A DNA stretch of 64,000 nt, from NCBI RefSeq assembly GCF_001420005.1, contig NZ_LJAK01000017.1, positions 1 to 64,000 of the forward strand. Reading direction: 5' to 3'. The translations under genes and the position numbers were made by a program. Positions 7,107 through 25,439 of the stretch are shown piece by piece. Source of the stretch: Loktanella sp. 3ANDIMAR09. Lineage in GTDB: Bacteria > Pseudomonadota > Alphaproteobacteria > Rhodobacterales > Rhodobacteraceae. The stretch's first letter is position 1, and each line of letters begins with the position of its first letter. The notes under the pieces were generated by a model that saw nothing but the letters and a program-made list of their open reading frames with translations, ran no database searches and was not told the DNA's origin.

Positions 7107-7225
7107 GTCCTTCACCACGGCATGTTGAGTTATGACCGAATTTGGTTATGGCGTAATTCAAAAAGCGGCGTAATGAGGCAGATGTCAGCGCCGGCCAGAA
7201 CCTCATAAGTAGCAATACGCCCATA

Positions 7226-8369: not shown

Positions 8370-8435
8370 GTGGGACAACCTCGGCACAAAATCTTGGTCA
8401 CTTTTGAATAGGAAGCATGTTGATGGATAAGCCCA

Positions 8436-10175: not shown

Positions 10176-11479
10176 CCTCTGGCATCAATGTTCCCAGCCG
10201 CTGGTCAGCGACAAAACCGCTTCTGATTGGCACGTTCGCTGTTTTCCTGCTGGTTGGAGGTTTTGGTGCGTGGGCTGTCTTTGCCAATCTGCAAGGTGCC
10301 GTAATCGCCCAAGGCCAGATTGAGGTCGACCGCAACCGTCAGGTGATCCAGCATCCGGACGGCGGTGTAGTCGAGCGGATCGCGGTCGACGAGGGCGAAA
10401 CCGTCGCCGCAGGCGATTTGCTGATCGAACTTGATTCTTCCAATCTAGAGAGTGAATTGGCTGTGGTCGAAGGCCAACTCTACGAGGTACTCGCCCGCCG
10501 CGCCCGGCTCGAGGCAGAGCGTGACGGGTCGACTACATTGACCTTTGACCCTCTGCTCTTGAAGGGGGCGTCAGAGGCAAAGGACCTGATCGACGGTCAG
10601 CAGCGACTGTTCGAGGCGCGCCTCGACAGCCTACTGAAGGCGACCAATCAGCTTGAACAGCAAGGCATGCAGATCGCGAGCCAGGTGACCGGCATCACAG
10701 CCCAACAAACGGCAATGGCAGAGCAAGCTGCCTTGATCGACGCAGAACTGGCCGACCAGCAAAGTCTGCTCGACCGCGGCCTGACGCAGGCCAGCCGGGT
10801 GCTGGCACTGAAACGCGAGGCATCTAACATGCGCGGCCGGGCCGGAGAGCTCCGCGCTCAGGCCGCCCAGGCTGCGGAACGTCGCACCGAAATCGAGATC
10901 CAGATCCTGGGGCTGGCAAGCACCCGCCGCGAAGAGGCAATCACACGGCTGCGCGATCTGCAATCCAACGAGCTGGAACTAACGGAACGGCGTCGCACGC
11001 TGCGCCAGCAACTTGATCGGCTGGATATCCGCGCTCCAGTCTCGGGGGTCGTTTACGGGTTGACGATATTTGCGCCGCGCTCGGTGATCCGCCCAGCTGA
11101 ACCGCTGCTCTATCTTGTGCCGCAGGACCGTCCATTGGTGATCGCCACACAGGTGCAGGTGACCGACATTGACCAGATTTATTTAGGGCAAGACGTGCTG
11201 CTACGCCTATCGGCATTCGACCAGCGCCGCACACCGGAATTGGCTGGCCATGTAACTCAAGTCAGCGCTGACGCCTTTACGAACGAACAAAACGGCCTGT
11301 CCTTTTATCGTGCAGAAGTGAGCATGAATGAAGGAGAGATCAGAAAACTTCCCGATGGGATGATGCTGATCCCAGGCATGCCAGTCGAAGCCTACGTCAG
11401 GACCGCTGACCGCACACCCATGAACTACTTTCTCAAGCCCATCTCAGACTACTTTGCAAAAGCCTTCCGAGAGAGCTGA
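10172..11479 (+). CDS. Type I secretion membrane fusion protein (HlyD/PrtE family)
   Basis: This 435-residue periplasmic adaptor links the ABC exporter to an outer-membrane channel. It has an N-terminal transmembrane helix (about residues 17-38), a biotinyl-lipoyl-like half ([19 protein letters not shown]), a long Ala/Gln/Glu/Arg-rich coiled-coil hairpin (about 90-280), the returning lipoyl half ([12 protein letters not shown]) and a C-terminal beta-barrel domain ([12 protein letters not shown]). The ATG at 10172 overlaps the exporter stop codon (ATGA), so the pair is translationally coupled. No TolC-like gene is present in the window. A longer upstream frame overlapping the exporter is not credible as a start. 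Confidence 0.93.
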
Positions 11480-11633
11480 AGAAGGTTAAAGGGTCTCATA
11501 GCCTGCACGACTGACCCATGATCCGTTCGCGCTTTCGCTAGAGGATGCCTTGCTGGTCGGATACTAAAAAGCCCTGCGAGGTCATCTTATTGGCAGGGGG
11601 ATTTAGCAAGATGGTCAGTCTTGGCATTTGGCG

Positions 11634-11649
11634 TGACCTGCTCCCCTGA
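11634..11649. repeat. Left terminal inverted repeat of the IS3 element
   Basis: TGACCTGCTCCCCTGA, perfectly complementary to 12819-12834. Confidence 0.9.
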
Positions 11650-11659
11650 GTGTCCCCGT

Positions 11660-12480
11660 TTATAAGTTAGCTCTGTTCAGGTTTTGGTCGTCCTTTGACC
11701 GGTTAGCATATTCCCACGGCGTCAGGCCAGCGAGGCTTGAGTGTGGGCGATGGTGGTTGAAGTCTTCGCGCCATGCCGCCACGAGATCGCGGGCATTGCG
11801 CAGAGTGTCGAACAGGTGCTCGTTCAGAAGTTCGTCCCGCATCCGGCCGTTGAAGCTCTCCACAAGGCCGTTCTGCATGGGTTTGCCCGGCGCGATATAA
11901 TGCCATTCGACCTTGCGGTCTTCCTGCTACTTCAGGATCGCGTTCGAGGTCAGTTCTGTCCCGTTGTCAGAGACCACCATGCAGGGATAGCCGCGCATCT
12001 CTGCGATCCTGTCCAATTCGCGGCCGACGCGCATACCTGACAGCGACGTGTCAACAACAGCGGCCAGGATTTCCGACTGAAGTCGTCGATCACGTTCAGG
12101 ATGCGGAGCCGCCGACCGCAGGACAGGCTGTCGGACACGAAGTCCAAGCTCCACCGCTGGTTCGGCCCTCTCGGGATGGCCATCGGCGCTCTGGTGCCCA
12201 AGGCACGTTTCCGGCCACCACGTTTGCGCACTGTCAGGCCCTCCTCTTTGTAGATGCGATACAGCTTCTTCCAGTTCACCTGCCAGCCATCGCGCTTCAC
12301 CAGCACATGCAGCCGTCGATAACCGAACCGCCGCCGTTCCGATGACAGATCCTTCAGGCGTGCCCGTAGGTCAGCGTCATCTGATCTGCTCGACGGCCTG
12401 CGATACACACGCGGATCTATCCCCGCCAAAGCGCAGGCCCGCCGCTGCCGATATCCCTCCTGGTTCATGGCCCAATCCAC
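11660..12480 (-). pseudogene. IS3 OrfB (DDE transposase), frameshift plus nonsense
   Basis: The frame from 12480 encodes the HTH_21 region (RRFGYRRLHVLVKRDGW) and the first catalytic Asp (WSLDFVSDSL) up to NVIDDFSRK. One base is then missing near 12078, and the reading continues in another frame with TSLSGMRVGRELDRI and the second Asp (VVSDNGTELTSNAILK). There a Trp codon has become TAG (about 11926-11928). The C-terminus ([36 protein letters not shown]) follows intact with the catalytic Glu. Two lesions mean this copy cannot make transposase. Confidence 0.9.
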
Positions 12481-12503
12481 GGCGCGCCGCCGTGCATCAG
12501 GCC

Positions 12504-12770
12504 TCAGAAGTTTTTTCCCAGCATCTCCTTCAGCGTGGACACATCCATCATTTGCTCGGCCAGCAGCTTCTTGAGTTTGGCGTTCTCTGCCTCCAGCGCC
12601 TTCAGCTTCCTTGCATCAGATACTTCCATGCCGCCAAACTTGGATCGCCATTTGTAGAAGGTCGCATCGCTGACGCCGTGCTTGCGGCACAGCTCCTTCG
12701 CGCCAAGCCCCGCCTGATGCTCCTTCAGAATGCCGATAATCTGTTTTTCACTGAACCTCGATCGCTTCAT
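12504..12770 (-). CDS. IS3 OrfA (helix-turn-helix transposase subunit)
   Basis: The 88-residue product starts MKRSRFSEKQIIGILKEHQ and contains the HTH_Tnp_1 segment ELCRKHGVSDATFYKWRSKF, then a leucine-zipper-like tail (ARKLKALEAENAKLKKLLAEQ). In IS3 elements OrfA binds the ends and is fused to OrfB by a programmed -1 frameshift. Here OrfA is intact but OrfB is broken, so OrfA alone could act only as an inhibitor. The ATG at 12770 is preferred to an upstream start at 12806. Confidence 0.88.
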   Translation of the reverse strand: MKRSRFSEKQIIGILKEHQAGLGAKELCRKHGVSDATFYKWRSKFGGMEVSDARKLKALEAENAKLKKLLAEQMMDVSTLKEMLGKNF

Positions 12771-12818
12771 CGTCTGTCTCCTTTGATAGGAACAGACTAA
12801 CCTCAAATCGCGGACTTT

Positions 12819-12834
12819 TCAGGGGAGCAGGTCA
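12819..12834. repeat. Right terminal inverted repeat of the IS3 element
   Basis: TCAGGGGAGCAGGTCA, perfectly complementary to 11634-11649. Confidence 0.9.
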
Positions 12835-13081
12835 GCAGGCGCGGAAATTGCCACGATAACGCGGTGGCGGAAAGCTTCTTCCATCTTTTGAAGCGCGAAC
12901 GGATCAGGTGGCAAACCTACCTCACACGCGATGCAGCAAGGCAGGACGTATTCGATTACATTGAGATGTTTTATAACCCCACCCGCAAGCACACGAACAA
13001 CGGCATGTTGTCACCGGTTGACTATGAAACCACACAAAGGAAATGAACGATGCAGGCGTCTAAGAGACTAGGGGCACGTCA
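12835..13081 (+). pseudogene. 3' fragment of another IS3 orfB with its right IS end
   Basis: The frame continues from the IS boundary as RRGNCHDNAVAESFFHLLKR, then QDVFDYIEMFYNPTRKHTN, and ends SPVDYETTQRK at 13046. This is the C-terminal third of an IS3 OrfB of the same type as the remnant at 2852-3748. The sequence GACTAGGGGCACGTCA at 13066-13081 is the inverse of the IS end found at 2852. The upstream two thirds are absent. Confidence 0.85.
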
Positions 13082-13090
13082 AACAATGAT

Positions 13091-13489
13091 TGTAAGCTTC
13101 TGACATCCATCTCAGGAATTGGGCCGTTCAACGCCTTGGCCATTCTGGCAGAGGCTGGTGATCTGCGCCGCTTTCAGCATCACCGCCAATTCTTGAAGTT
13201 CTGCGGTACGGATCTGGCAACCATCCAGTCCGGCACATTTCGAGGCAAGACCAAGCTGTTCCAATACGGCAATGCCCTGCTACGGCGGACGCTTTGGATG
13301 GCTGCGCAGGTGGCCATCATGCAAAAGACCAACAGCTTTCGTGATAAGTTCGAGCGTTACATTTCCAAAGATCGGAAAAACACCCATTTGCGCCGCACGG
13401 CGTATACCGCAATCGCTCCCAAAATGGCCCGGACGGAGCGCGGGATCATCAAACGGGGCAAACCTAATCGTCCCTTCTTTCAGGGTTGA
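13091..13489 (+). pseudogene. IS110-family transposase, C-terminal fragment
   Basis: In-frame with the 13136-13489 open frame, the translation begins KLLTSISGIGPFNALAILAE, the helix-hairpin-helix part of the Transposase_20 domain. It continues with QFLKFCGTDLATIQSGTFRG, LRRTLWMAAQVA and AYTAIAPKMAR. The N-terminal DEDD catalytic half is missing, so this is only a remnant. It directly follows the IS end at 13081. The next 240 bp (13490-13731) hold no recognisable feature. Confidence 0.85.
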
Positions 13490-13731
13490 TCGCCAGCAGG
13501 AGGACCTTTCTCTGTAGGGGGCGAAGAGGCGAGCAATCGAACTCGTAGATAATGTTCAGGCCTTCTGCTCAACAACCCGAAGATCTTGTCTTAAGGACGG
13601 TGTGAGCCGCAAAATTGTACTCTGTGTTTGTTATGGGAGAGACATGTTGTTGACCAAAATGCCGAACTGACACACATTTAAACAAGCTGGAGTGCTCTAG
13701 CGTGACAATGATCTGATTCCGAATCAACCAA

Positions 13732-14019
13732 TCATTCCGCGCATAGAACGTTGTCGCTGAAGATGCAGCCGGGCTTGCCGTAGACCCGGATGAGGGCAAC
13801 GAGCTCCCTGGCAACCCGTGTGCCGGACAGGCTGGGGTCCGCGACAAGGCACGGGCATTGCCGAGTGCTATCGTCGACCACTGTCAGCATCCGGAAGTTT
13901 CGCGAGGTGCCGAAGCTGTCGGACACGAAGTCCAATGACCAACGCGCGTTGGGATGCGGGGCAACTGGCATCCAGTTAGTCGAAAGCTCCGCTTTGCCTC
14001 GGTGGTGACATGAGACCAA
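13732..14019 (-). pseudogene. IS3 orfB internal fragment
   Basis: On the minus strand the frame gives HPNARWSLDFVSDSF (first catalytic Asp), RMLTVVDDSTRQC, SLSGTRVARELVAL and KPGCIFSDN (second Asp), then stops. This is the central part of an IS3 OrfB, distinct in sequence from the element at 11634-12834. Both ends are missing. It marks the left boundary of the IS-rich zone next to the mobile element. Confidence 0.8.
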
Positions 14020-14070
14020 ATTCTGGGGTAAATCTGCGAGCTAAAATCTATCGACTTAGATCTGAGATAA

Positions 14071-14244
14071 TCAGCCTTGAGCGTTTTGGTCGAACCAGTC
14101 TTCCATCATCCGCCGTATCATCTCTGGCCGTGATGGCTTGTCTGATTGAGCGTCTATCGCATCGTCCAGCCGCTTCAATGCATCAGGGGGCACCCTCACC
14201 AAAACTGGTGTCGCGTCAGTTTTAGGACGACCGATCTTCGCCAT
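14071..14244 (-). CDS. Ribbon-helix-helix (CopG/Arc-like) small DNA-binding protein
   Basis: This 57-residue protein begins MAKIGRPKTDATPVLVRVPP, a beta-strand with the usual RHH pattern, followed by two helices (DALKRLDDAIDAQ, SRPEMIRRMMEDWFDQ). Such proteins bind DNA as dimers of intertwined strands and commonly autoregulate. The ATG at 14244 is chosen; an upstream TTG at 14265 would place the start inside the repeat CCAATATCG. It faces the operon starting at 14365 across a 120-bp region with paired direct repeats, so it probably controls both sides. It has no adjacent toxin gene. Confidence 0.7.
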   Translation of the reverse strand: MAKIGRPKTDATPVLVRVPPDALKRLDDAIDAQSDKPSRPEMIRRMMEDWFDQNAQG

Positions 14245-14262
14245 AATAATCTCGAAACTTTC

Positions 14263-14292
14263 CAATATCGTCTATTGACTTTACAATATCGT
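14263..14292. promoter_or_regulatory. Direct repeats CAATATCGT, 21-bp period, candidate RHH operator
   Basis: CAATATCGT occurs at 14263-14271 and again at 14284-14292. The 21-bp spacing is two helical turns, so both copies face the same side of DNA. They lie in the divergent region between the RHH gene (start 14244) and the rightward operon (start 14365), in an unusually AT-rich stretch. Direct repeats of this kind are typical RHH half-operators. The assignment is inferred from position. Confidence 0.5.
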
Positions 14293-14364
14293 ATAGTAAG
14301 TTCGTGCAGACGCAAGGGTCAAGCTTGCGCCTACACTAACCCCAACGATCCTATGGAGATCATC

Positions 14365-14961
14365 ATGGCTGACACTTTCCCTACCACGCGACACGGCGTG
14401 TCTCAAACCCCGAATGCGGCGCTGGATTTGTCTGTGGCGAACGCCGCTGGCTTGGCAGAGTTTGATCGCTGCATGGCGCTGACGCGCGCTGCGATCGCGG
14501 CGGAGGCCTGCGCGGATGCGGCCAATCAAGATCCCGCACTTGCGGGTTGCGATCAAGCCGCAGCCGATGCTTGGGCCATGGCAGACGAGGCGCTCTGGCG
14601 TTTCCACTCCGACAGGTCTGTGGCCCTGTCGGATGTAAAGTATGCGGCTTGGGTGCTTCTGCTGATGCTCGAAGACGATGGAGACGGCCTCGATACTCTG
14701 ACGCAGCGTGCGCAAAGTCTGCGGTATCGGGCACGGCGGTTCGCCCGCAGTCCGTTGCCTGTCGAACTGCTCTCAGCACCGCGCATGGTCGTAGCCGCCG
14801 ATCTTGTCGATGAGATTATCGCAGCTGCTCAAGAAGATCTGACCGCACGCGAGGCGCTCCGCGCGACGCCAGTTGTGAGCACCGATCTCGGGCTGTCATC
14901 GTCAAGGGTCGATGTGCAATGCGAAGAGATCGAGGACGGTTTGGACGTCAGTCCGGTCTGA
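14365..14961 (+). CDS. Unknown Ala/Asp-rich helical protein, first gene of the mobile-element operon
   Basis: The predicted product has 198 residues and no domain I recognise. It is rich in Ala, Asp and Leu and appears mainly helical, with a basic patch (RAQSLRYRARRFARS) in the middle and an acidic C-terminus (CEEIEDGLDVSPV). No signal peptide or membrane segment is seen. The ATG at 14365 has GGAG 6 nt upstream; another in-frame ATG lies at 14353. It is followed 100 bp later by the GIY-YIG gene on the same strand and preceded by the RHH gene in divergent orientation. Confidence 0.65.
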   Translation: MADTFPTTRHGVSQTPNAALDLSVANAAGLAEFDRCMALTRAAIAAEACADAANQDPALAGCDQAAADAWAMADEALWRFHSDRSVALSDVKYAAWVLLLMLEDDGDGLDTLTQRAQSLRYRARRFARSPLPVELLSAPRMVVAADLVDEIIAAAQEDLTAREALRATPVVSTDLGLSSSRVDVQCEEIEDGLDVSPV

Positions 14962-15060
14962 TCTGCGCCATTCCGATCTGAACGACAGCGGCATCCGTGC
15001 TTCTGGATGCCGCCGGTCTGCCTTTGCCTGCAGTTCATCCTTATTCAGGAGGTGCGTTCA

Positions 15061-16065
15061 ATGAACGTTCATTCCCTCGTATCCGACACATTCATCATCG
15101 ACGGCGATGCCTACCCTGCCCTCGATAAGCCACTCCAGCCGAACTGGATCGCGGCAGCCGCGCGCGCGGGCTTTGATCTGATCGGTCGCGCCCGTGACCG
15201 CTACCACGGCGTGTTGCGCTGTCGCACCTGCGCCACCGACGCGCTGGTGCGGATCAATGTCATTCGTGACGCGACACCGCTGTGCCACGCCTGCATCCAT
15301 GACCGACGGTCCCGTGCGGCCCAAGCTCTCGGCGCAGAGCTGGTCGCCAAGTGTCCGGAACATCGACACTACGGCCTGTTCCGCCTGCCCTGCGGCCATG
15401 TCGTGCGGAGTCAATACACTCGTGTGGAGGCCGCCGCAGACGGCGGTCACGCTCTCGGATGCGAAGACTGCCGCGCCGCACGCGATGATGAGGCGGCCCG
15501 CGACTTTGGCTGGGTCTTGGTCGGTCCTGCCACAAGCGGGCGCGCAGGGTATCGCGACTACCGCCACCATTGCGGCCACGTGCAATCCATCAGTGTCAGC
15601 AACATGCGCTGGGGAGACTGCACCTGTGCGGCCTGCGGTCAGGGGTGGGCGGCCAAGCCGTCGTTCATCTACTTGTTCCGGATCGACCTGCCGGAGATGT
15701 CGGTCCTGAAGCTGGGCTATTCCGCCCGACCGGCCAAGCGCCTGCGCCACCAGCTTGGTCTCGACCGCAGCGTGTCGGCCGAAGTCATCCGGGTGCTTGC
15801 GCTCTCCTCCGGCAATCTCGCCGTGCGTGAAGAGAAAGCCTGCCATCGCCATATGCGCAACATGCACCCCGAACTGGTCCTGCCCAAGCGCGTGTTTGGT
15901 GACGCGATCAAGACCCAAGGCGAGATCTATCATCTGCGGGCAGAACCCTTGCTGCACGCTTTGATCGATGGTGTCACGGCACGATTCCGGTCCGCCGCCG
16001 ACCATCCGTCGAGATCCACCGCGCCGAAAGCCACGGACGCGCGGCGCGACACGCGCCCCGACTGA
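15061..16065 (+). CDS. Zinc-ribbon protein with C-terminal GIY-YIG-like nuclease domain
   Basis: The product has 334 residues. The N-terminal two thirds hold a series of Cys/His pairs spaced like repeated zinc ribbons: CRTC/CHAC (about residues 57-83), CPEH/CGH/CEDC (about 99-140) and HHCGH/CTCAAC (about 175-200). The C-terminal third resembles a GIY-YIG nuclease of the Mug113/T5orf172 kind. It has FIYLFRI and LKLGYS as the two core strands, then the basic helix ARPAKRLRHQL, REEKACHRHM and a final GEIYHLRAEPLL with the candidate catalytic Glu. A strong AGGAGG ribosome site precedes the ATG at 15061. It probably nicks or cleaves DNA; the target is unknown. The tail after about residue 310 is basic and disordered. 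Confidence 0.7.
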   Translation: MNVHSLVSDTFIIDGDAYPALDKPLQPNWIAAAARAGFDLIGRARDRYHGVLRCRTCATDALVRINVIRDATPLCHACIHDRRSRAAQALGAELVAKCPEHRHYGLFRLPCGHVVRSQYTRVEAAADGGHALGCEDCRAARDDEAARDFGWVLVGPATSGRAGYRDYRHHCGHVQSISVSNMRWGDCTCAACGQGWAAKPSFIYLFRIDLPEMSVLKLGYSARPAKRLRHQLGLDRSVSAEVIRVLALSSGNLAVREEKACHRHMRNMHPELVLPKRVFGDAIKTQGEIYHLRAEPLLHALIDGVTARFRSAADHPSRSTAPKATDARRDTRPD

Positions 16066-16251
16066 CGCCAGCGCCACGCCCGCATTCGACGAAGAGGGGG
16101 CAGTCCACGGCGGAATCTGCCTGATTGCGGGCAATGGAACAGGTCGCTGACCCGCCAGCCTCACCTGCCGCCCCTTCTCGCCGTCACCCGTGACCGATTG
16201 CCCCCTTCGGGCACCGGGTTCTCCGCTCGTTCCTACAGACAGGATATCGCC

Positions 16252-18702
16252 ATGACACATTCGAACACCAATACCGCTCCTGAGCTTCCGCAGACTTCGA
16301 CCGCCCAGACCCAATCCGTCACCGCACCCTCTTGGCAACCACTGGCCGACGTGGCCCTGCATCGGCTCTATCCGGATCGTCCGCGCGGGCTGAGGATCGG
16401 GGCGTTCCTACGCAGCTTGCAAACCTCAGACGCAGAAGCCGACGTCGATGCCTATGCTGATGCAACATGGAACGCGCATGCCAAGGATGATGCGCCATCG
16501 AATGCGGATGCGGTGTCACCCACGCCTGCTGACGGCCCAAGCGCCGCGGACGCCCTGCGAGCGTCGGAGATTGCCGAAAGTCTCGATGAGGTATTCGATG
16601 ACGTTGAACTCTCGAACGACATGCCCATGCCCAGCGGGACGCCTGCGGCCGATGCCATGCGTTCCGCTGAGATCACCGCAGCCCTGGCCGCGGGCGATGA
16701 CCCATGGGCCACCGACAGCGTCACCCGGAACTGTCGCCCGCCCTGCCCCGTCGCGGCCAGCGCTGTGCTGGCCCTCGCGCAGCTGGCCAAGACCTTTGGC
16801 GATCAGGCGGCAGTCAATGCGCTGCTGTCGGATGGGGCCGCCACCGTGCTGATCTGCGACAGCACGGCCGAGGCGCGGCGCCTCAAGGACGCGCTGATGA
16901 AGGGGTTGCGCGCCAAAGGCACGCCCCCCGGTCAGCCGCTGTCGCAAACCCCGCTCCGCCCGGAGGTCATCCTGGTCGATACCCGCACACCGACCTCCAT
17001 CGCAGCAGAGCTGGCCCGCGCCGAGGACAAGCTGGCAGAGCCTGCACCGCTGGTCATTCTGACCCCACCGGGTCAGGACCTGCCCGGCACGCTGTCGCTG
17101 CTGCCCGTCGTTCACATCGCCCGGCCCTGCACCCAGACGCTGGCCTGGACCCTGCGCCTGACCCACAGCGCCACCGGACAGATGGCCGAAGGTGCGCTGC
17201 GCGCGGCCCTGCCCGCTGATGCCGCCCTGGCAGCGCTGCCGATGAGCACCGTCGACCTCGCCTTGCGCCAACCCAGCCCGTTGCGTGTCGCGCGCAAGCT
17301 GGCGGAGCTGGCCCGGCCGAAGACGGTCATCGCAGACGACGGACCGACGCTCGACGATCTGCCGGGTCTTGGTGAGGCAGGCCAAACCCTGCGCCAGATC
17401 GCCACCGATCTGAACGCCTACAGGGCGGGCACACTGCCGTGGTCGGACGTGGCTAACGGCGTGCTCCTGACGGGCGCACCCGGCACCGGCAAGACTTTTG
17501 CTGCCGCGGCCCTTGCGCGGGCCGCAGGTGTGCCGCTGGTCACCGCAACGCTGGGCGGATGGCAACAATCGAAGGCCAAGCGTGGCAACGAGACGATGCG
17601 CGCCATGGCCGACACCTTCGAGGCGGCAATCGCGGCAGCATCCGGTCCAGCCAGGGGAGCGGTGCTGTTCCTCGACGAGATCGACGCCCTTCCCTCCCGC
17701 GACGGTCCGGACGATCACAATTCAACCTACTACCGCAATGTGACCAATGCTGTGCTGGCGCTTCTCGACGGGGCCATCGGTCGTGACGGTGTCGTTGTCA
17801 TCGGGGCCACGAACCACCCCGAGCATCTCGACACGGCGATGGTCCGGCACGGTCGGCTGGGGCTGCGCATCGATATGCACCACCCCACGACAGCCGACCT
17901 GCCGGATGTACTGCGTTACCATCTGCGCGGCGATCTGCCCGGCGCCGACCTGACGGGCATCGCGCGCGCAGCCGCCGGTGCCACGATGGCGGACATCAAA
18001 GGTCTGGTGCAGGTCGCGCGTCAGACCGCCCGTGCCAAGGGTCGCGATCTGGCGGTCAGTGATCTGATGACCGCCCTGCGGGATCAGCGCCCGCTGGTGC
18101 CGCAGGCGCTGCGCGCGCGTGTCGCCATCGCCGGTGCCGCCAAGGCCGTCACAGCCCAGATCACCGGATACGCCCGCCCCGACCGGATTAGCCTGACCGT
18201 GGCACGAGACGTCACGGCGCAGGTCGTGCTGACACCGCTGCCGAATGCGCGCAGGCCGACCGACATTCAGCGCGAGATGATCATCCTGCTGGCCGGACGT
18301 GCCGCCGAAGAGGTGATCATCGGGTCCGTGTCCGGTCGCAGCGGCGGCGACGCGGCATCCGATCTGGCACGCGCCACCCGCCTGGCGATCGCCGCTGACC
18401 TCAGCTTTAGCCGTGGGCCGGGTCTGATCTGGTGCAGCGCGGACGCAGACCCGGCCACGCTCTTTGCCCGGCACCGTGGGTTGCGCGACCGCACCGCCCG
18501 CAGGCTCGACGCCGCCTACGCCCGCGCCTGCGACCTCGTCCGCGTGCACCGCGTCATGATCGAGACGCTGGCCGGTGATCTGCTGGTGGGTGGTGTCGTG
18601 GAACGTGAGGCTCTGCGTGATGTGCTGGAAGTCGCAGCACCGGAAAGCGATAGTGGCGATGAGGGTGGGGGCGATACGGCGAGGTTCTGGCCGAGGGTGT
18701 AA
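16252..18702 (+). CDS. FtsH-like AAA+ ATPase with degenerate M41 protease domain
   Basis: The 816-residue product has an acidic, Ala/Asp-rich N-terminus (about 45-150) with a short internal repeat (AADALRASEIAESL / AADAMRSAEITAAL). An AAA+ module follows: Walker A GAPGTGKT (about 408), Walker B LFLDEID (about 473), sensor GATNHPEHLD and arginine fingers in RHGRLGLR. The C-terminal part aligns with the FtsH peptidase domain, including LAGRAAEEVIIG and the later Asp in ASDLARAT. However, the zinc site RVAIHEAGHAV is replaced by RVAIAGAAKAV (about 623), so His, Glu and His are all lost. The FVG pore loop also appears replaced by KAKRG. There are no transmembrane helices, unlike true FtsH. It is probably an ATPase remodeller rather than a protease. 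The ATG at 16252 follows AGGATATC. Confidence 0.8.
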   Translation: MTHSNTNTAPELPQTSTAQTQSVTAPSWQPLADVALHRLYPDRPRGLRIGAFLRSLQTSDAEADVDAYADATWNAHAKDDAPSNADAVSPTPADGPSAADALRASEIAESLDEVFDDVELSNDMPMPSGTPAADAMRSAEITAALAAGDDPWATDSVTRNCRPPCPVAASAVLALAQLAKTFGDQAAVNALLSDGAATVLICDSTAEARRLKDALMKGLRAKGTPPGQPLSQTPLRPEVILVDTRTPTSIAAELARAEDKLAEPAPLVILTPPGQDLPGTLSLLPVVHIARPCTQTLAWTLRLTHSATGQMAEGALRAALPADAALAALPMSTVDLALRQPSPLRVARKLAELARPKTVIADDGPTLDDLPGLGEAGQTLRQIATDLNAYRAGTLPWSDVANGVLLTGAPGTGKTFAAAALARAAGVPLVTATLGGWQQSKAKRGNETMRAMADTFEAAIAAASGPARGAVLFLDEIDALPSRDGPDDHNSTYYRNVTNAVLALLDGAIGRDGVVVIGATNHPEHLDTAMVRHGRLGLRIDMHHPTTADLPDVLRYHLRGDLPGADLTGIARAAAGATMADIKGLVQVARQTARAKGRDLAVSDLMTALRDQRPLVPQALRARVAIAGAAKAVTAQITGYARPDRISLTVARDVTAQVVLTPLPNARRPTDIQREMIILLAGRAAEEVIIGSVSGRSGGDAASDLARATRLAIAADLSFSRGPGLIWCSADADPATLFARHRGLRDRTARRLDAAYARACDLVRVHRVMIETLAGDLLVGGVVEREALRDVLEVAAPESDSGDEGGGDTARFWPRV

Positions 18703-19784
18703 ATGATGCGCACATCGCGGCATGGGCGGCGGGTGTCGTCGCCCGTGCCAGCCAAAAGCCTCTACGATTCCAGCTTTCGCTCGCCCGTCGCCAAATATCC
18801 TTCTTTAGATCGCGCGTTCTTTGTCAGGACGATAATCCGTTGGTTCATCACTTTAAAGTTCGCCAGCATCCGACGAACAGCCTCATCGGGTTGCGCCGTC
18901 ACAATTGAAAGCAATCCACCAAACAAAAAAACGCTCACCATATAAAGCAGGTACAGTCATTTATTGATACTGATTGGCCAATATTCACGGCAGGCCTGGC
19001 ACCTGCAAAGCCGCAATCCATCAAACAATGATACCGTCGTGGGGGCGTGTGACGCACAATTCAAAGTCTGCCTGTCGCTGTCGAACAAGAGTGGATCACA
19101 AACACTTTCCCGAAAGACAGACTGCCATCCCCTCAAGATCGGCTCCCTGCCAAAACCATCTCACTTCCTGCAGCCTGACAAAACCTACCCTTTCGTTGCG
19201 GGTCTGACAAAACCTGATTGATCTTCGGCCGTCTGACAGAACCTTCCTTATTGTCGTGCGTCTGACAAAACCGGTTCAAGTTTTGCGCCTCTGACAAAAC
19301 CTCGCCTGAAGCCATTCCCTGACAAAACCGGTCTGCATGCCGTGGCTCTGACACAACCTCTTTCTGTCTTGCCCCTCTGACAAAACCGTTTTGCAAATTC
19401 CGGGCCTTACAAAACCTGATGGGGTCGTATTGTTGGAAAGGGCGACCATCACTGCGGCATCATCGGCAGGCCCTGGTCAGCGCCAATTTCTTACCTGATG
19501 ACCATCTCGGAAACCGCTGTGATTGATCTGCGACGCCCCTATCGGCCGATCAACCAGACATCGACACCAGAACGAGGATGACCGCTGATCGACCAGGACA
19601 GCGCAGCGAGCCGGCGGTGATTTCGATCTTCTAGAAGCCCGTCCCTTCGAGTTGAGGTGACCTACCCGACAGTAAGCGCAGATCTCTCGAACACGCACAT
19701 CTGATCGGCAGAAGCACCGCCAAACTGAGGAACGCCGTGCGCTTCTGCGATCGCGCAACTGTTCAAATCAGCCGCGGTCTTTTC
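18703..19784. other. 1.08-kb noncoding region with iteron array; candidate replication origin
   Basis: No credible gene is present; short open frames here lack ribosome sites and recognisable protein features. An AT-rich stretch lies at about 18,895-18,985. It is followed by the repeat array at 19147-19416 and then about 370 bp of ordinary sequence up to the relaxase stop codon. An AT-rich segment next to phased short repeats is the usual architecture of an iteron origin. The location between the operon end and the convergent relaxase gene fits a maintenance or replication locus. Confidence 0.5.
19147..19416 (+). repeat. Iteron-like array, ten copies of CTGACAAAACC, 28-29-bp period
   Basis: Copies begin at 19147 (CTGCC variant), 19175, 19204, 19233 (AGAACC variant), 19262, 19291, 19319, 19348 (CACAACC variant), 19377 and 19406 (CTTACAAAACC). 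The spacing is 28 or 29 bp throughout, so the 11-bp core recurs about every 2.7 helical turns, while the intervening 17-18 bp are unrelated. Binding sites for an initiator or partition-type protein are the most likely meaning. A CRISPR array is excluded because the conserved unit is too short. Confidence 0.85.
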
Positions 19785-21005
19785 TCAGGTGGGACCCAAG
19801 CCCTCATCCCGCTCATCCCATAGTTCACAATCAGCCACGCCCGTGTTTGACGAGTCCTGCTTTGCCGCAATAGGCTGCTCCTGCCCCGCGACCGCCCGCC
19901 GATAGGGCCGCAACGTCTCTGCATCCTGCGCGCGCTGCATCTGACCGAACTGCCCCTCACGATAGGTTTGATCATCCACACGCTCGAGGGCAGCCCGGAC
20001 CTCTTTGATCTGCTTGTCTGGGACGTCGGGCAACACCTGCCTGATCCTGCGCAACAATCCACGCTCTGCGGCGGCGTCTTTCAGCAACAGTTTCAGAGGA
20101 CGCAGATAGTCAGTGATGATCCCTTCCAGTTCAGCCACTCGCTTTTGCAGACCACCCACAGTCTCGGCGACGATCCGGTCCGCACGCGCGCGCTCTTGCG
20201 CGCGGGCCTCCAGCACGGCCGCGTCTTTCAGATCAGCGATCTCGGCAAAGGCCGCGTCCAGTTCTGCGTGTCGCGCTTTCAAACGGGCGGCCTCTTCGTT
20301 CACCCATTGGCGGGTCGTTTTTGGCTTGGGATCGTCCTGCGTGCGAGGATAGCCCGGATGGATCCCCAGCGCGGCAAAGGCCCGACCGAACGCCTGGCGC
20401 AGCGCCTCAAAGCTTCCCTCCAGCCGCAATGTTGGATGCGATGCGCGACCCACCGTGCGCACCCCCGGTGAGGCCGCAACCTTGGCCTTGCGCGCCGCGA
20501 ACGCGGCATCGGTCTCTCCCTTTCGCCGTCGGTCCACAGCACGGGGCTTGCGCAGATAAGTGGGCGCGACCAGCACATGCAGATGCGGCGTGTCCTCATC
20601 GAGATGAAGCGAGACATGCACCAAATCCGCGCCAAACTCTTGTCTCAGGGCCGCCATTGCCACATCAAGCCAAGCCTCCAGTCGCGCCGCGTCCCATGTG
20701 CCGATCTGCCCCGGCGCATCGGGCCGAAAGAAGTTTGCCGACGCCCCCATGACGATCCGCAAGTAAGGCAGACGCGCACGCCGGGACGGCATCTTGACCC
20801 CCGCTTTGTAGAAGTCCGCCAATGCCGCTTTGGGACCGGCGGGATTACCGAACAGCACCCGGTTCAAACAGGTGCGTGCGGGATCGATGTTGGATGAGTC
20901 CGCCACACGCTTGATCTCATGGGTGTCCATCTCCGTCACATTGTCGGCACTGGCAGGCTCACAGTTGAACACCAAGAAAGATTGGTCGATCGCATCTTTG
21001 GGCAT
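19785..21005 (-). CDS. MOBV-type relaxase (Mob/Pre family)
   Basis: This 406-residue DNA-nicking relaxase is expected to start conjugal mobilization at oriT. Motif I is NIDPARTCLNRVL near residue 40. The metal-binding/histidine motif is HLDEDTPHLHVLVAP (about 130-145), the HxDE-x-PH-x-H pattern of MobV proteins. After about residue 215 the protein is a long charged coiled-coil (ARLKARHAELDAAFAEI and following), as in other Pre proteins. A 14-bp inverted repeat lies 73 bp upstream of the start and is a candidate oriT. No VirB or VirD4 homologues are in the window, so mobilization would need a helper. The start at 21005 has only GAGATGAG upstream. Confidence 0.88.
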   Translation of the reverse strand: MPKDAIDQSFLVFNCEPASADNVTEMDTHEIKRVADSSNIDPARTCLNRVLFGNPAGPKAALADFYKAGVKMPSRRARLPYLRIVMGASANFFRPDAPGQIGTWDAARLEAWLDVAMAALRQEFGADLVHVSLHLDEDTPHLHVLVAPTYLRKPRAVDRRRKGETDAAFAARKAKVAASPGVRTVGRASHPTLRLEGSFEALRQAFGRAFAALGIHPGYPRTQDDPKPKTTRQWVNEEAARLKARHAELDAAFAEIADLKDAAVLEARAQERARADRIVAETVGGLQKRVAELEGIITDYLRPLKLLLKDAAAERGLLRRIRQVLPDVPDKQIKEVRAALERVDDQTYREGQFGQMQRAQDAETLRPYRRAVAGQEQPIAAKQDSSNTGVADCELWDERDEGLGPT

Positions 21006-21077
21006 AAGCTCATCTCATAGGTTCGGCGCATTTTCTGCGGCATACTTTTTTCACGGGTCAGGATTATCGTTTGGGCA

Positions 21078-21115
21078 GATCGGAGTTTCCTGTGGCTCAT
21101 AAGGAAACTCCGATC
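21078..21115. promoter_or_regulatory. Perfect 14-bp inverted repeat, candidate oriT of the relaxase
   Basis: The arms GATCGGAGTTTCCT (21078-21091) and AGGAAACTCCGATC (21102-21115) flank a 10-nt loop GTGGCTCATA. The repeat lies in the 220-bp gap between the relaxase start and the DUF3987 stop codon. MOBV origins of transfer are typically inverted repeats just upstream of mob. A terminator for the upstream DUF3987 gene is the alternative, but the downstream arm is not followed by a T-run. Confidence 0.55.
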
Positions 21116-21226
21116 ACCTGCAGGCCGTCCGGTGCGACGTTGTCTGCAACAGTAGTCAGCATGGGTCGTGATCACGCAGACGTATGAAGCCAGCTGACCT
21201 GCCAAGCCTGCAGCGATCGGCGCAAC

Positions 21227-23095
21227 CTATTCCGGCTGCGGGGCCTGCCCCGGCGGCCAGATCCGCGGGTTCACCGCCGCGCGCCGACTGGGCGCACCGC
21301 CCCGCGGCCCACTGGGGGCCGCCTTCATCAGCCGCACAACATGTGCCCGCTCCAGCCAAGTCATCAGGTCCACGAAGGCGTCACCTTTTTCGAACTTTTC
21401 AGGCGCCATACGCCGCAACTCCCGCACGGGGATGGATGCAACCCTATTGGCCTGCAACTTCTTGACGAGCGTGTAGGCCGCCAGTTCGGTCTCGCTGCAC
21501 CCGTTCCGCCAGTAAACCGACCGTGCCATCGGCAGCAGGTAGTCGTCGAAGAGCCGACCCGCAGCGCGCACATCGTCGGCCTCGACAGTCTCCGGTGTAT
21601 CGGGTCCGGTTGAGACCACGCGCATCAGAGCCAGCACCAGCGCAAGCCGCGCGACCGTGCCGTCACTCTTGCCGATAAAGCTTACCAGCAATCCCGCCTC
21701 TTGCGATTGCCGTGCGGCCGTGATGCGCGCGGCCATGAGCGCCCGCGCGTCATCAGTGAACGGCACCTCCCGCGGCGCGGGTCCGTGCATACCCTCATCC
21801 ATCTGCAATGCCCTGAGACCGCGGAGCACATCCAGGATCGGACCATCATCGATGCGCGCATTCAGGTCGACGACCGACTGCGGAACACCCCACACCGGAC
21901 AGAACCTGGCAAAAAGGCCGTCTGATGCGAGTTTGGGGACGTGCTTTTCGAGAACGTCAGGCTGGATACTGCCCACGATCGAAAGCAACACACCCGCAAG
22001 ATCAGTATTCTCTTTGGCAGTATAACGCCGGAAAGGGGCACCATCGGCGCACTTGAGAAGCAGTGCGCGCAGGTCAGAAGGCATCGTCTTGACAAAGCCC
22101 GCGATCTCATCCGCGGTCATCAGCATACCGCGCCTGTGCTGCGCGAGCATCTTGATCAGCCCGAGATAGGTCATCATCTCGCACATCAGCAACGGTTTCG
22201 GACCGAGAGCGGCCTGAATATTCTCTCCCCCGTCCGGCATCACTGCCTGCCGCCAGGCATGCGCGTCATCTTCCAAATCCGGCAGGCCAGCCGCCGCGTG
22301 CGCAGCCTGCTCTTCAGCCTCCAGCGTCCGGTATGGTTTGAGCGTCCGGCCCATGGCCGGACTTTTGGCGGCTGCCGGATCCCCGATCAGCAAGAACCAC
22401 AGAATGCAGGGCACCGCCCATTCCGGACCGACGCGCCCGACCCGCGCATTTCCGATCGCAGCGGCCGCCATCGCCAAAAACGTGGCCACAACGTAACCCT
22501 CGGAGGCCCCGACCGCTTTCGCGACCGACCGAATGAAGTCCGCGATCATATCCGGGAAGATATCCAGCGGCACATTCACTTCCGGCAACGCTCCGATCAA
22601 GTTCGGATCGACAGACGGCCAATCCGCAACATAGGCTCCGGCAGCTGTCTCGTCCGGAGAATGTGCAGGCGGCGCGATCGCAGGCTCTTCCGCAACCTGA
22701 TCAGCAGACTCGGCCTCATCAAAGTCGTCTTGCTGAGACAGATCCGGTGGCCGCACTGGTTCATCAACACCGTCAGCTGCAGGGGCTGGCGGATCGACGA
22801 AGCTAACGTCGGCACCGCCCAGATCTTCAGCATCCGTCGCAGGTTTGCCAGCCAGCGACGTTGAACCATCGGCGTGAGGCGGATCAGGTGTTGCAACCTC
22901 TTCATTTGCATCGGGCTCAGGCGTAGAGCTCTGCGCCGCTGGCGGGATCGCGACCGGCCCGTTGACGTTGTCATACCGAATATCCTCTTCCGGAATAGAG
23001 GTGCGAACGACACCCGCACCGGTAATCGGCGGATCAGCGGGACTTGGTTTCGGATCGTAGACCTTGGACTTGGAGAACATCGGAGATTTGGCCAT
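21227..23095 (-). CDS. DUF3987 (YfjI-like) helicase/primase-associated protein
   Basis: The 622-residue product has a disordered acidic, Pro/Ala-rich N-terminus (about residues 1-165). The following domain matches DUF3987: VPLDIFPDMIADFIRSVAKA, then a modified P-loop GDPAAAKSPAM (about 235), TADEIAGFVK as a Walker-B-like segment, and LSIVGSIQPDVL. Proteins of this family occur in phages and integrative elements beside integrases and replication genes and are thought to be replicative helicases. The classic GKT/S is replaced by AKS. A good ribosome site (AAGGAAATCC) precedes the ATG. It lies upstream of the relaxase on the same strand, 221 bp away. Confidence 0.75.
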   Translation of the reverse strand: MAKSPMFSKSKVYDPKPSPADPPITGAGVVRTSIPEEDIRYDNVNGPVAIPPAAQSSTPEPDANEEVATPDPPHADGSTSLAGKPATDAEDLGGADVSFVDPPAPAADGVDEPVRPPDLSQQDDFDEAESADQVAEEPAIAPPAHSPDETAAGAYVADWPSVDPNLIGALPEVNVPLDIFPDMIADFIRSVAKAVGASEGYVVATFLAMAAAAIGNARVGRVGPEWAVPCILWFLLIGDPAAAKSPAMGRTLKPYRTLEAEEQAAHAAAGLPDLEDDAHAWRQAVMPDGGENIQAALGPKPLLMCEMMTYLGLIKMLAQHRRGMLMTADEIAGFVKTMPSDLRALLLKCADGAPFRRYTAKENTDLAGVLLSIVGSIQPDVLEKHVPKLASDGLFARFCPVWGVPQSVVDLNARIDDGPILDVLRGLRALQMDEGMHGPAPREVPFTDDARALMAARITAARQSQEAGLLVSFIGKSDGTVARLALVLALMRVVSTGPDTPETVEADDVRAAGRLFDDYLLPMARSVYWRNGCSETELAAYTLVKKLQANRVASIPVRELRRMAPEKFEKGDAFVDLMTWLERAHVVRLMKAAPSGPRGGAPSRRAAVNPRIWPPGQAPQPE

Positions 23096-23558
23096 GAGGA
23101 TTTCCTTTTGTGAGTTTGGAACCCCTAAAATAGGTAATTATAGCAGCACCGATACCCCTCTGCTTGGCTAATTGAATCTAAACATGTGGACAAACCGGCT
23201 AATCGGCTAAACTTGCCTTGTTGCGGCACCGACCGCGAGCACTTCTCAAGCTTACCAATTAATTATATAAAACATTTTATTTTCGCATCAGAATCGAACT
23301 TCAATTAATTCATGGGCGACCAGCTTCTCACGTTCGAGGTGGTCAGAACCTGATTTTGACGGCACGACATGACGGCAAATCAGCGCGTCAACGGAATCTC
23401 GTTCTCCACCCAGGCTTATCTTCAATTTGTCCACGACTTTGTTCGCCAGAGACGGTGCAATTCGCATTGACATCGGTTAGATTGCAATCACAGCGCCACC
23501 CGACACTCCCCCGTAATCGTAACCTTCAACAAACGCGCAGCCCGCGCACGGTATCACT
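23096..23558. other. AT-rich intergenic region upstream of the DUF3987 gene
   Basis: About 460 bp carry no convincing gene. A 61-residue minus-strand frame at 23288-23473 has no ribosome site and no known features. The stretch 23255-23285 is almost pure A/T, and the 7-mer CGGCTAA occurs twice about 10 bp apart near 23195-23210. It probably contains the promoter of the leftward DUF3987-relaxase genes. Confidence 0.4.
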
Positions 23559-23819
23559 TTGTCCAACGCACCGACATCAACGACAGCCAATGGCCCCGAC
23601 CGCGCAGCCGCGCGGACGGGCCGTCGGCGTGCACTGCGTCTGGACAAAGTCATTGATACCGCACGTATCGAGAAAGCGTTGGAGACTGTCGCTCTGCTTC
23701 TGGAAGAGAACGAACGTTACCTGCCGATCTTCCTGCGGTTGGAAACCGAACTCGAAGCGGCCCGTCGCTCGGCCGACGCACTGGCGCGGGCCAAGGCAAT
23801 CGCGCGCAAGGCGCGCTGA
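23559..23819 (+). CDS. Small hypothetical protein beside the integrase
   Basis: An 86-residue frame opens with TTG and has no clear ribosome site. The product has a basic N-terminus (RTGRRRALRLDKV) followed by a helical, coiled-coil-like segment (TARIEKALETVALLLEENER, LETELEAARRSADALARAKA). The heptad-like pattern and codon use suggest a real protein, perhaps DNA-associated, but no family is recognised. It converges with the integrase gene, the two stops being 4 bp apart. Confidence 0.45.
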   Translation: MSNAPTSTTANGPDRAAARTGRRRALRLDKVIDTARIEKALETVALLLEENERYLPIFLRLETELEAARRSADALARAKAIARKAR

Positions 23820-23823
23820 GACC

Positions 23824-25164
23824 TCAGGCCAAGTGGTCCGGCACAGGCAGTGCGATGCGCGCGACAACATCGCGTCTCATCTGCAGCGCCATTTCGTCGC
23901 CGTAGACCTCACGGCCACGGACTTCCTTGACGCTGTGCCCCATGATCTCACCGCGATCGTCCATCGGCACTTGCGCGGCTTTCAACCGGCTTTCCCACGT
24001 ATGGCGCACACCGCCAATGGTCACACCTGCCGGTAGCAAGCCGTTCTCGCGCAAATATTTGTTCACGCCAGCCGAGTAGCTCCGTTTGTGGCGGTAGCGG
24101 GGAAAGCCCTCGGGATGGCGTTTCGCGGCCGCCAGTGCCAATCCCACAAGCGGCACCTGCCGCTCTGAATGCACATTCTTGACCTCCCGCCTATCGTCCG
24201 CGCTCTCGTCGCCCTCCTCATTCGCGACCATCAAATGCGGGATCGGCGCGTCAAGTTTGAACGCCCGTGCGGGCAAATCCATGATTTCCGACTGACGGCA
24301 CCCTGTCTCGATACTGATCAAAAGGATATCGCGTGCTTCGTCGTTCATTCCGTCCAGCGCACCTGGTGCCAACCATTTTTCCTTGATCCAATCGACTGGC
24401 ACTTCTCGCTTGCGGGTCGGTTTGGCATGTCGGTCACGGATCGAGATACCGGCGTAAGGTTGCGGCGGTGCCGCTTGTCCAAGGTCGTCGTAAAACCGGC
24501 GCAGCATGCCAGCGATATAATGGAAATCCTTGTTGGCAGAGGCGACCTTCAGCCTTCCACTTTTCAACCTGCCCTGCCACAGCCGACGATGCTGCAACGC
24601 TTCTGCCGCAGTTACGTCTACGACCCTACGATCCCCGCCAATCGCCTCGATCAAATTGCGAACAGCGCGATCGCGCGGGTTCCGCCACAACCGCATCTGC
24701 TGCGCGCTTTTGAACCGGTTGTCATGCGATGCAATATCTTCGATATGCGCGACAAGGCCGGATAGCATCAGGCCGGGCTCTTCAACGCCGCCCAACAGCG
24801 CCTCGGCAACCTCTGGCTGCACATCATTAGACAGTGCCAAAGTCGCCTCAACACGGCGCAGCAGTTCGATCAGTTCAAGATTTGCAACCGACTCTGCCGA
24901 CAGAAACGCATAACCCTGTCGCGCGGCCAGATCACGCGCCGCCCGAAACCGGGCCTCCGCATCCCCGTCACGCCCCGCAAGCCGCGCTTCCCATCCATCG
25001 ACGTATCCCGCCCAAACACGTTCCACCTTCGAAAGTGCAATCGCGCGAGAATCTGTTTTCAAGCTGTGCCAGATGACAGGCCGCGGCTCCACATCAGCAA
25101 ACCGCGCAGGCACGCGTCGCTTCAGGTAAAACGTCTTGCCGCGTAAGGTGAGGTTGTCTGACAT
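23824..25164 (-). CDS. Tyrosine recombinase/integrase of the tRNA-Arg element
   Basis: The 446-residue phage-type integrase has a short N-terminal arm-type domain (LTLRGKTFYLKRRVPARFAD), a core-binding region (about 140-240) and a C-terminal catalytic domain. Visible catalytic residues are Arg290 (ETGCRQSE), Arg387 (VRHTW), His410 (MGHS) and Tyr421 (REVYGDE). The first His of the box II HxxR motif is Gly384 here. The gene starts 140 bp from the 3' end of tRNA-Arg and reads away from it, the classic layout of an island inserted at a tRNA 3' end. GGAGATG precedes the ATG. Confidence 0.92.
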   Translation of the reverse strand: MSDNLTLRGKTFYLKRRVPARFADVEPRPVIWHSLKTDSRAIALSKVERVWAGYVDGWEARLAGRDGDAEARFRAARDLAARQGYAFLSAESVANLELIELLRRVEATLALSNDVQPEVAEALLGGVEEPGLMLSGLVAHIEDIASHDNRFKSAQQMRLWRNPRDRAVRNLIEAIGGDRRVVDVTAAEALQHRRLWQGRLKSGRLKVASANKDFHYIAGMLRRFYDDLGQAAPPQPYAGISIRDRHAKPTRKREVPVDWIKEKWLAPGALDGMNDEARDILLISIETGCRQSEIMDLPARAFKLDAPIPHLMVANEEGDESADDRREVKNVHSERQVPLVGLALAAAKRHPEGFPRYRHKRSYSAGVNKYLRENGLLPAGVTIGGVRHTWESRLKAAQVPMDDRGEIMGHSVKEVRGREVYGDEMALQMRRDVVARIALPVPDHLA

Positions 25165-25303
25165 CGCACATCTCCAATACCCTCGGGTAGCAGAATGTGG
25201 TGCGAAATGGGTAGCAAATCAATAACAGTAATATCGACCGAGACTGAAGCTTGCGGTTAAGATATTGGCGCTGAACAAAATAAACTAAAATTTTAATTTA
25301 TTA

Positions 25304-25380
25304 TGGCGGACTGGGGAGGATTCGAACCCCCGACCCCTTGATTCGTAGTCAAGTACTCTATCCAACTGAGCTACCAATCC
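25304..25380 (-). tRNA. tRNA-Arg (anticodon ACG)
   Basis: A 77-nt cloverleaf can be drawn. The acceptor stem is GGATTGG paired with CCAGTCC, the D-arm starts at GCTC, and the anticodon stem is CTTGA/TCAAG around loop CTACGAA (anticodon ACG, normally modified to ICG). The T-arm contains GGTTCGAATCC, the discriminator is G and CCA is encoded at 25304-25306. The 3' end faces the integrase gene, so the 3' half is the probable attachment site of the neighbouring element. I could not find a second copy of this 3' segment (attR) in the window. Confidence 0.95.
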
Positions 25381-25439
25381 GCGTAGGGCTGCATCTAGAC
25401 CTAGCACCCGACTGATGCAAGCCCCCAAAACCGGAAAAT

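Follow-up and report, generated by a model that had tools for sequence, protein, structure and literature searches.

The subject of this analysis is a three-gene cassette in a 64,000-nucleotide stretch of DNA from Loktanella sp. 3ANDIMAR09 (contig NZ_LJAK01000017.1, positions 1 to 64,000 of the forward strand; the whole stretch is called the window below). Its third gene encodes an FtsH-type AAA protein with a peptidase M41 domain; as read from the residues, the zinc site of this domain is dead, the ATPase motifs are intact, and the nuclease residues of the protein encoded upstream are intact as well. The genes lie on the same strand in the order P2 (a small protein), P3 (a zinc-ribbon GIY-YIG-type nuclease) and AAA-M41, and by the substitution ratios given below all three are under purifying selection with their order conserved. 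We regard it as about evenly balanced that the cassette encodes an ATP-driven ring controlling an exchangeable nuclease, in which the M41 ring serves here as a scaffold, most likely directed against mobile DNA; the role in defence we infer. The genes of the cassette are:

14365-14961, plus strand: P2, 198 amino acid residues, first gene, with homologues upstream of the nuclease in relatives
15061-16065, plus strand: P3, predicted zinc-ribbon and GIY-YIG-type nuclease, 334 residues, second gene, recognised by a phrog_681 match and its motif
16252-18702, plus strand: AAA-pseudoM41 protein, 816 residues, third gene, open reading frame (ORF) open, recognised by profile and fold matches

Domain structure of the AAA-M41 protein

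The window protein matches Pfam AAA over residues 404-541 (2.6e-23) and Pfam Peptidase_M41 over residues 662-790 (1.9e-6; 28.3 bits, slightly below the cut-off of 29.9). All 31 rows of the family alignment (A1) match Pfam M41 at E <= 0.01, the best at 2.7e-16, so that the M41 assignment of the window protein is secure at the sequence level once its relatives are aligned. NCBIfam FtsH_fam is matched at 5.6e-33 with 114.6 bits, far below its cut-off of 600. The AlphaFold model of the protein, built with 25 sequences, has a mean predicted local distance difference test score (pLDDT) of 77.4 and a predicted template modelling score (pTM) of 0.46, and in Foldseek its AAA and M41 parts match solved FtsH structures with target-normalised template modelling scores (TM-scores) of 0.80 for 2ce7_D and up to 0.84 for 7zbh over about 430-450 columns. 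The first row by E-value is 8xku_E, a chain of the Ycf2-FtsHi motor complex, at a low TM-score, while the fold search of viral models in BFVD gave FtsH/AAA proteins of giant viruses and phages, none of them closer. The first-pass annotation of this DNA had aligned the C-terminus with the FtsH M41 domain by eye, which is borne out, and its parallel with the inactive FtsHi proteins of plants proved apt, at that low TM-score. The features of the protein, all on the plus strand, are:

16252-16701: acidic N-terminal part, residues 1-150, net charge -17, with low model confidence in much of it
16639-17331: conserved N-terminal alpha/beta domain of the family, residues 130-360, with an HSATG motif, replacing the membrane part of FtsH (A1 and model)
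17473-17496: Walker A, GAPGTGKT
17560-17598: pore-loop-1 region, WQQSKAKRGNETM, with two extra residues and without an aromatic residue at the usual aromatic position
17659-17679: Walker B, D475 and E476, invariant in A1
17845-17856: arginine fingers R532 and R535, invariant in A1
18112-18651: pseudo-M41 domain, residues 621-800, by profile and fold; ratio of non-synonymous to synonymous substitution rates (dN/dS) to the copy in genome G299, 0.247
18130-18144: former HExxH site, now AGAAK (A627-K631); HExxH is missing in 5 of 96 surveyed members
18361-18363: D704, former third zinc ligand, retained and invariant in the 31 rows of A1

N521 is also retained besides the Walker motifs and the arginine fingers, and no membrane helix is apparent, since the mean hydropathy over 19 residues nowhere exceeds 1.56. 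These motifs, the missing helices, the acidic N-terminus, the loss of both zinc His and the catalytic Glu at residues 627-631 and the later Asp had all been read correctly from the letters in the earlier annotation. The order of the elements in the model hinted that the N-terminal domain might be a degenerate second AAA domain, but the hhalign probability was 0.9 and this idea is unsupported. A tRNA-Val called by ARAGORN inside the AAA gene (17434-17528) is deemed spurious, as Rfam gives tRNA-Arg alone in 11000-26000. The scan for promoters and terminators gave two promoter-like sites where shuffled sequences gave 1.0 on average, and its result was not used.

Loss of the zinc site in one clade

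The survey of the family covered 98 loci (L numbers below), 96 of which have an AAA-M41 ORF at E < 1e-60, L070 and L071 being the two without one; these 96 members are not independent (near-copies such as L073/L153 are among them), they are drawn towards the query, and some lower-ranking matches were not fetched. HExxH is kept in 91 of the 96 and lost in five, namely the window protein, L044 on contig C16 of the same genome, L067 and L068 in genome G297, and L064 in genome G299. These five copies come from three species of one genus, and the site reads AGAAK, ACAAK or SGAAK. In a tree of 95 rows, the FtsH of this genome included, they form one clade with a support of 100/100, whose sisters L065 and L046, from the same genus, both have HExxH; the dead copies nest among HExxH relatives, and no plant FtsHi is among the rows. 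On this tree HExxH was therefore lost once, within this genus, and the gene was then duplicated, with its copies diverging to 70% identity. It had been considered at first that homologues might commonly carry HExxH and that the window copy might be merely a mutant. The former holds for the family, whereas the latter fails because five diverged copies share the loss, and a lone mutant or a sequencing error is ruled out in the same way. At a threshold of 1e-36, a match was found in 62 of 390 sampled genomes of the order and in 12 of 385 of the class, with the genome of the window counted in both.

With respect to the copy in G299, which is the most distant one, dN/dS is 0.16-0.17 for the AAA part and 0.25-0.28 for the M41 part in all four other copies, and the M41 domains of active relatives give 0.086-0.391 (18 of 20 pairs, L035-L132 and L166-L165 being saturated). 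Among the closer dead copies the M41 ratios vary and are higher, reaching 0.49, and the synonymous divergence is unequal between the domains, which hints at recombination between copies. Judged by these ratios, the dead M41 domain is under purifying selection, which excludes plain decay and allows some relaxation. The second protease-dead AAA copy of this genome (L044, positions 470-2905 of contig C16) is located near a contig end, resembles the window from within the gene onward only, and has beside it a gene resembling, by eye, one for UDP-glucose dehydrogenase.

The first-pass annotation had also named the lost aromatic pore loop as a second peculiarity of the protein. The window protein indeed reads KRG without FVG, but this is not special to it, as FVG was found in none of the 96 members. 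Most relatives have (W/C)QxxGH(L/Q)G, the two sisters have GRF, and the dead clade has GRG with two extra residues; a Tyr lies near the site in L076, L077 and L169. The candidate explanation that the pore-loop change is a companion of the zinc-site loss was rejected: RG is also present in HExxH relatives, for example L111, L112, L115, L116 and L130, and therefore the change and the zinc-site loss do not go together. By its distribution in the alignment, it is mostly a family trait.

Upstream partners P2 and P3

P3 consists of two recognisable parts, both on the plus strand:

15220-15636: repeated CxxC zinc-ribbon region, residues 54-192
15661-15960: GIY-YIG-like domain, residues 201-300, with the conserved pattern Y..KxG..R..E..ExY

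The cysteines C75, C78, C111, C134, C137, C171, C189 and C192 are present in 52 of 52 GIY-group proteins, and C54 and C57 in 50 of the 52. The domain was judged against the GIY-YIG core motif of Y, (Y/K)xG, R and E, and the corresponding residues Y204, K217, G219, R227 and E258 are found in all 52 proteins. Moreover, P3 matches the phrog_681 endonuclease profile over residues 160-269 (3e-9, for a profile that has no curated cut-off), and of the 17 plasmid records in which P3 has a match, 5 annotate its relative as a GIY-YIG nuclease. The model of P3 has a pLDDT of 85.2. In sequence searches of PDB, the top matches were LIM and zinc-finger proteins at E 0.0065 or worse.

Homologues of P2 stand upstream of the nuclease in L046, L064, L065, L067 and L068, that is, in three other loci of the dead clade and in both sisters. 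Elsewhere in the family another small protein, S1, is encoded by the next gene upstream in 54 loci (56 ORFs), and it is at most a distant relative of P2 (hhalign probability 57.9, E 1e-4). Searches of P2 against Pfam, NCBIfam, PADLOC and PHROGs gave no match. The dN/dS to G299 is 0.21 for P2 and 0.21 for P3.

Exchange of the nuclease across the family

A GIY-YIG-type protein is encoded upstream on the same strand in 50 of the 96 AAA-M41 loci, and a PD-(D/E)XK-type protein in 19. The first count is the sum of 48 loci found by a rule of <=1.5 kb, among them the interrupted L154 with a GIY-type protein 908 bases from AAA-M41, and of L137 and L150, whose overlapping ORFs escaped the rule. For the second type, seven proteins were run against Pfam and the other twelve were assigned by a shared profile. 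PDDEXK_5 is matched above the cut-off by L144 (1.2e-7) and L159 (1.2e-6) and below it by L037 (1.7e-5), L111 (0.0018) and L110 (0.057), and the upstream proteins of L047 and L128 gave no PDDEXK_5 match in Pfam. In a tree restricted to the 69 loci that have one of these two types, the nuclease type changes nine times, and at least six of these changes are forced by starred branches, which shows, at the level of the gene tree, that the nuclease type has been repeatedly exchanged across the family.

Other candidate hydrolases occupy the nuclease slot in five loci. L160 has a metallophosphoesterase (4.5e-13), L038 a metallophosphoesterase by record annotation with no Pfam match, L058 a weak CoiA-like match (E 0.11), and L161 and L162 have related proteins with no Pfam nuclease match and a PD..ExK-like pattern seen by eye.

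Mobile-element setting

The right side of the cassette is occupied by the following features:

19147-19416, plus strand: iteron-like array, 10 copies of CTGACAAAACC (at most one mismatch) at a spacing of 28-29 nucleotides, with spacers unlike each other
19785-21005, minus strand: MobV-type relaxase (Mob_Pre 7.3e-9, above the cut-off; MobV 1.5e-16, 61.1 bits, below the cut-off of 100)
21227-23095, minus strand: DUF3987 protein (4.3e-36)
23824-25164, minus strand: DUF6538/tyrosine-type integrase (DUF6538 3.2e-9; Phage_integrase sub-threshold, E 0.031)
25304-25380, minus strand: tRNA-Arg adjoining the integrase (tRNA calls, Rfam)

The tRNA-Arg is likely the insertion site of the island; a second exact copy (>= 14 bases) of its 3' end was not found within the window. 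The placement of the gene on a mobile element in the first-pass annotation agrees with an island that has a MobV-type relaxase, a DUF6538 integrase and a flanking tRNA-Arg. The ten copies of CTGACAAAACC compare with 0.82 expected by chance, G299 has 11 copies at the equivalent place (L064, 4983-5273), and among 295 genomes sampled from the family, the exact pair pattern of the array was seen in that of the window alone. Its layout resembles iterons or a set of binding sites belonging to the MobV/DUF3987 module, and the array is probably part of the element and not of the cassette; its candidacy as a cassette component is rejected for now, the repeat being absent in the available stretches of L067 and L068. 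The order of cassette, repeat array and MobV recurs in G299. Among 31 other loci searched, the MobV type of the window is present in L064 only and its integrase type in L051 only; the stretches of L067 and L068 stop before the MobV position could be judged.

To the left of the cassette, remains of IS3-like and IS110-like transposases lie at 11950-13489. Further left, an RTX-repeat protein (5088-7106), which has a match of serralysin C-terminal type, is followed downstream by an ABC transporter and an HlyD-like protein (8436-11479), and 5088-11479 as a whole looks, from the gene content, like a type I secretion set. Near AAA-M41 on three plasmids (L036, L038 and L077) there are DUF6634 genes.

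Proposed function and alternatives

We lean towards a nuclease-based function directed against DNA over plain element biology. In the mechanism that we propose, the AAA-M41 protein would assemble into a soluble ring and hydrolyse ATP, the ring would recognise a trigger, either invading DNA or a protein bound to DNA, and it would remodel or load its partners P2 and P3 and so license the nuclease to cut. In most relatives the M41 ring would presumably be a protease, perhaps one that clears away an inhibitor or the nuclease once it is spent, whereas in the dead clade it would be a structural floor and docking surface only, where a contact between K631 and D704 possibly replaces the zinc. The purpose would most likely be defence against, or competition between, mobile DNA. 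The dead clade keeps two predicted catalytic functions, the ATPase and the nuclease, and therefore proteolysis would not be the output of the cassette there; on our best reading, proteolysis is usual in the family but dispensable. The fuller form of this proposal, i.e. a hitherto undescribed three-gene immune or element-conflict system of alphaproteobacteria made up of a small adaptor, an exchangeable nuclease of GIY-YIG or PD-(D/E)XK type, with a metallophosphoesterase as a possible third kind, and a soluble FtsH-type ring, with one lineage that has given up proteolysis and uses M41 as a scaffold gating DNA cleavage, we hold a little less firmly, somewhat short of evenly balanced. The idea of the first-pass annotation, a soluble remodelling ATPase recruited for element biology or defence, was thus half right: the inactive soluble FtsH-type AAA protein stands, and the predicted upstream nuclease, the usual HExxH and the second dead copy had been overlooked.

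The neighbourhood of the family is suggestive only with respect to defence genes. From the surroundings of 20 family loci, 143 ORFs were kept by a crude rule (longest non-overlapping, 110-1199 residues, cassette excluded) and 130 scanned, and the control consisted of 20 stretches about one third along contigs of the same genomes, with 130 of 183 ORFs scanned. At 1e-12, PADLOC models matched number 118 near the family loci, a count of models rather than of genes, versus 3 in the control, and Cas1, methyltransferase, Drt8 and NsnA are among the 25 of the 118 models listed. In addition, SIR2 and DUF3427 are annotated beside L072 and TIR proteins beside L038, and HipA, AbiEi and Fic occur in L070, a stretch with P3 and without an AAA-M41 ORF; the records of L035 and L074 have ordinary metabolic neighbours.

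Several points weigh against the proposed function. The 25 listed models are mostly Cas1 and methyltransferase models, each matched by one gene, and so the true number of genes behind them is small; mad3 was matched 2 times near family loci versus 6 in the control, and the control stretches are arbitrary parts of contigs, not mobile regions. Neither P2 nor P3 has a match in PADLOC 2.0.0, whose best match for the AAA protein, IetA (3.3e-19, residues 400-608), covers the AAA part alone. Many loci of the family are on plasmids, where maintenance roles are equally natural. The identity of P3 as a GIY-YIG nuclease is itself a prediction, based on the motif and the PHROG match: Pfam T5orf172 is matched at E 0.084 with 13.8 bits, below the cut-off of 20, and the PDB fold search of the P3 model gave nothing at E <= 0.001. 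Among the rows listed in that search, the GIY-YIG-like one is 1zg2 alone (E 1.8), a UPF0213 protein; UPF0213 belongs to GIY-YIG. Furthermore, 27 of the 96 loci have neither a GIY nor a PD-(D/E)XK neighbour, about six of them cut by a contig end and about 20 not accounted for in this way, and a nuclease was not recognised upstream in L049, L059, L063, L113, L156, L036 and L121, nor in the distant 900-residue group L164-L169. Finally, the copy on contig C16 has no adjoining P3, and P3 is single in this genome; therefore the AAA protein may also function by itself, or together with the one P3 of the genome in trans.

The strongest alternative, which we consider possible though clearly less probable, is that the AAA ring and the nuclease are housekeeping parts of the element, with a role in replication, integration or copy control or in maintaining the plasmid or island that carries them, rather than in defence. 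It is in line with the MobV, DUF3987, integrase and iteron-like array of the island in the window and with the order of cassette, array and MobV shared by G299, as well as with the position of L069 near repA/repB and with resolvases, which make up 4 of the 130 neighbour ORFs. On the other hand, the cassette recurs in other settings, with the MobV and integrase types of the window found in one each of the 31 other loci searched, no CTGACAAAACC array was found in the stretches of L067 and L068, and the nuclease changes its type while the rest stays constant, which is more in keeping with an effector than with a part needed for replication.

It is unlikely that the protein is a regulator in mixed rings, where dead subunits would join an active M41 protein, as FtsHi subunits do with FtsH12, and adjust its activity. 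The FtsHi precedent, as presented in parts of PMC8197885 and PMC11266112, the first Foldseek row and the presence of two dead paralogues in the genome speak for it, but the only HExxH protein found by this query in the genome is FtsH, at 30% identity, and no active member of this family was found there. That the protein is still a peptidase with another active site or metal is very improbable: D704 and the fold are retained, but none of the five copies has either His or the Glu, these positions being taken by A/S, G/C and K. Least credible of all is a decaying pseudogene that lost its site when selection ceased, for which the HExxH of most relatives and the raised M41 ratios of the closer dead copies could be adduced, and which is largely contradicted by the selection test, five open copies with low dN/dS to G299 in both domains, and by the retained ATPase motifs and D704.

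Comparison with known systems and significance

The proposed ring-controlled nuclease resembles several known systems in part. With FtsH, the window protein shares the order of AAA and M41, the fold, the Walker motifs, the arginine fingers and the Asp ligand, but it lacks HExxH, the membrane helix and the FVG loop and has an extra N-terminal domain. Its AAA domain resembles IetA, whereas its partner is a nuclease, the protease-like domain is fused and dead, and its upstream neighbours are P2 and P3; in IetAS the partner IetS is a subtilisin-like protease. P3 resembles the zinc-ribbon GIY-YIG endonucleases of T5orf172 type in its phrog_681 match and its Y/KxG/R/E pattern, and differs from them in the linkage to an AAA-M41 gene and in a T5orf172 score below the cut-off. 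In the open-licence PMC literature searched, preprints being outside the scope, no description of an AAA-M41 and GIY-YIG cassette was found; the part of PMC10924106 concerned treats ietA among others and not this cassette.

According to the relevant part of PMC10164562, BrxL of the BREX (bacteriophage exclusion) system is an AAA+ factor in phage restriction; it binds DNA, and its Lon-like C-terminal domain shows no evident protease motif. This domain is Lon/RadA-like and not M41, and the operon of BrxL is different; the precedent shows that an AAA+ ring that restricts phages can bind DNA and have a protease-like domain in which protease residues are not evident. The FtsHi1-5 proteins and the Ycf2-FtsHi motor likewise have M41 without HExxH, with the ATPase retained and the domain conserved, and, as far as parts of PMC8197885 and PMC11266112 report, these dead M41 proteins are kept as motor subunits, membrane-bound and tied to chloroplast protein import, whereas the window protein is soluble, bacterial, mobile and nuclease-linked. 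Prochlorococcus marinus SS120 has one presumably inactive FtsH (mentioned in part of PMC8197885), and therefore a dead bacterial FtsH is not new in itself. What is new is the pairing of a conserved, soluble, protease-dead FtsH-type ring with an apparently live nuclease that is exchangeable family-wide. This adds a soluble bacterial counterpart to the chloroplast FtsHi pseudoproteases, and a conserved cassette with interchangeable nucleases. Moreover, the same cassette with a live or a dead M41 ring is a natural experiment, in which one can test whether AAA rings of this kind contribute their protease or their motor to a nuclease-based system.

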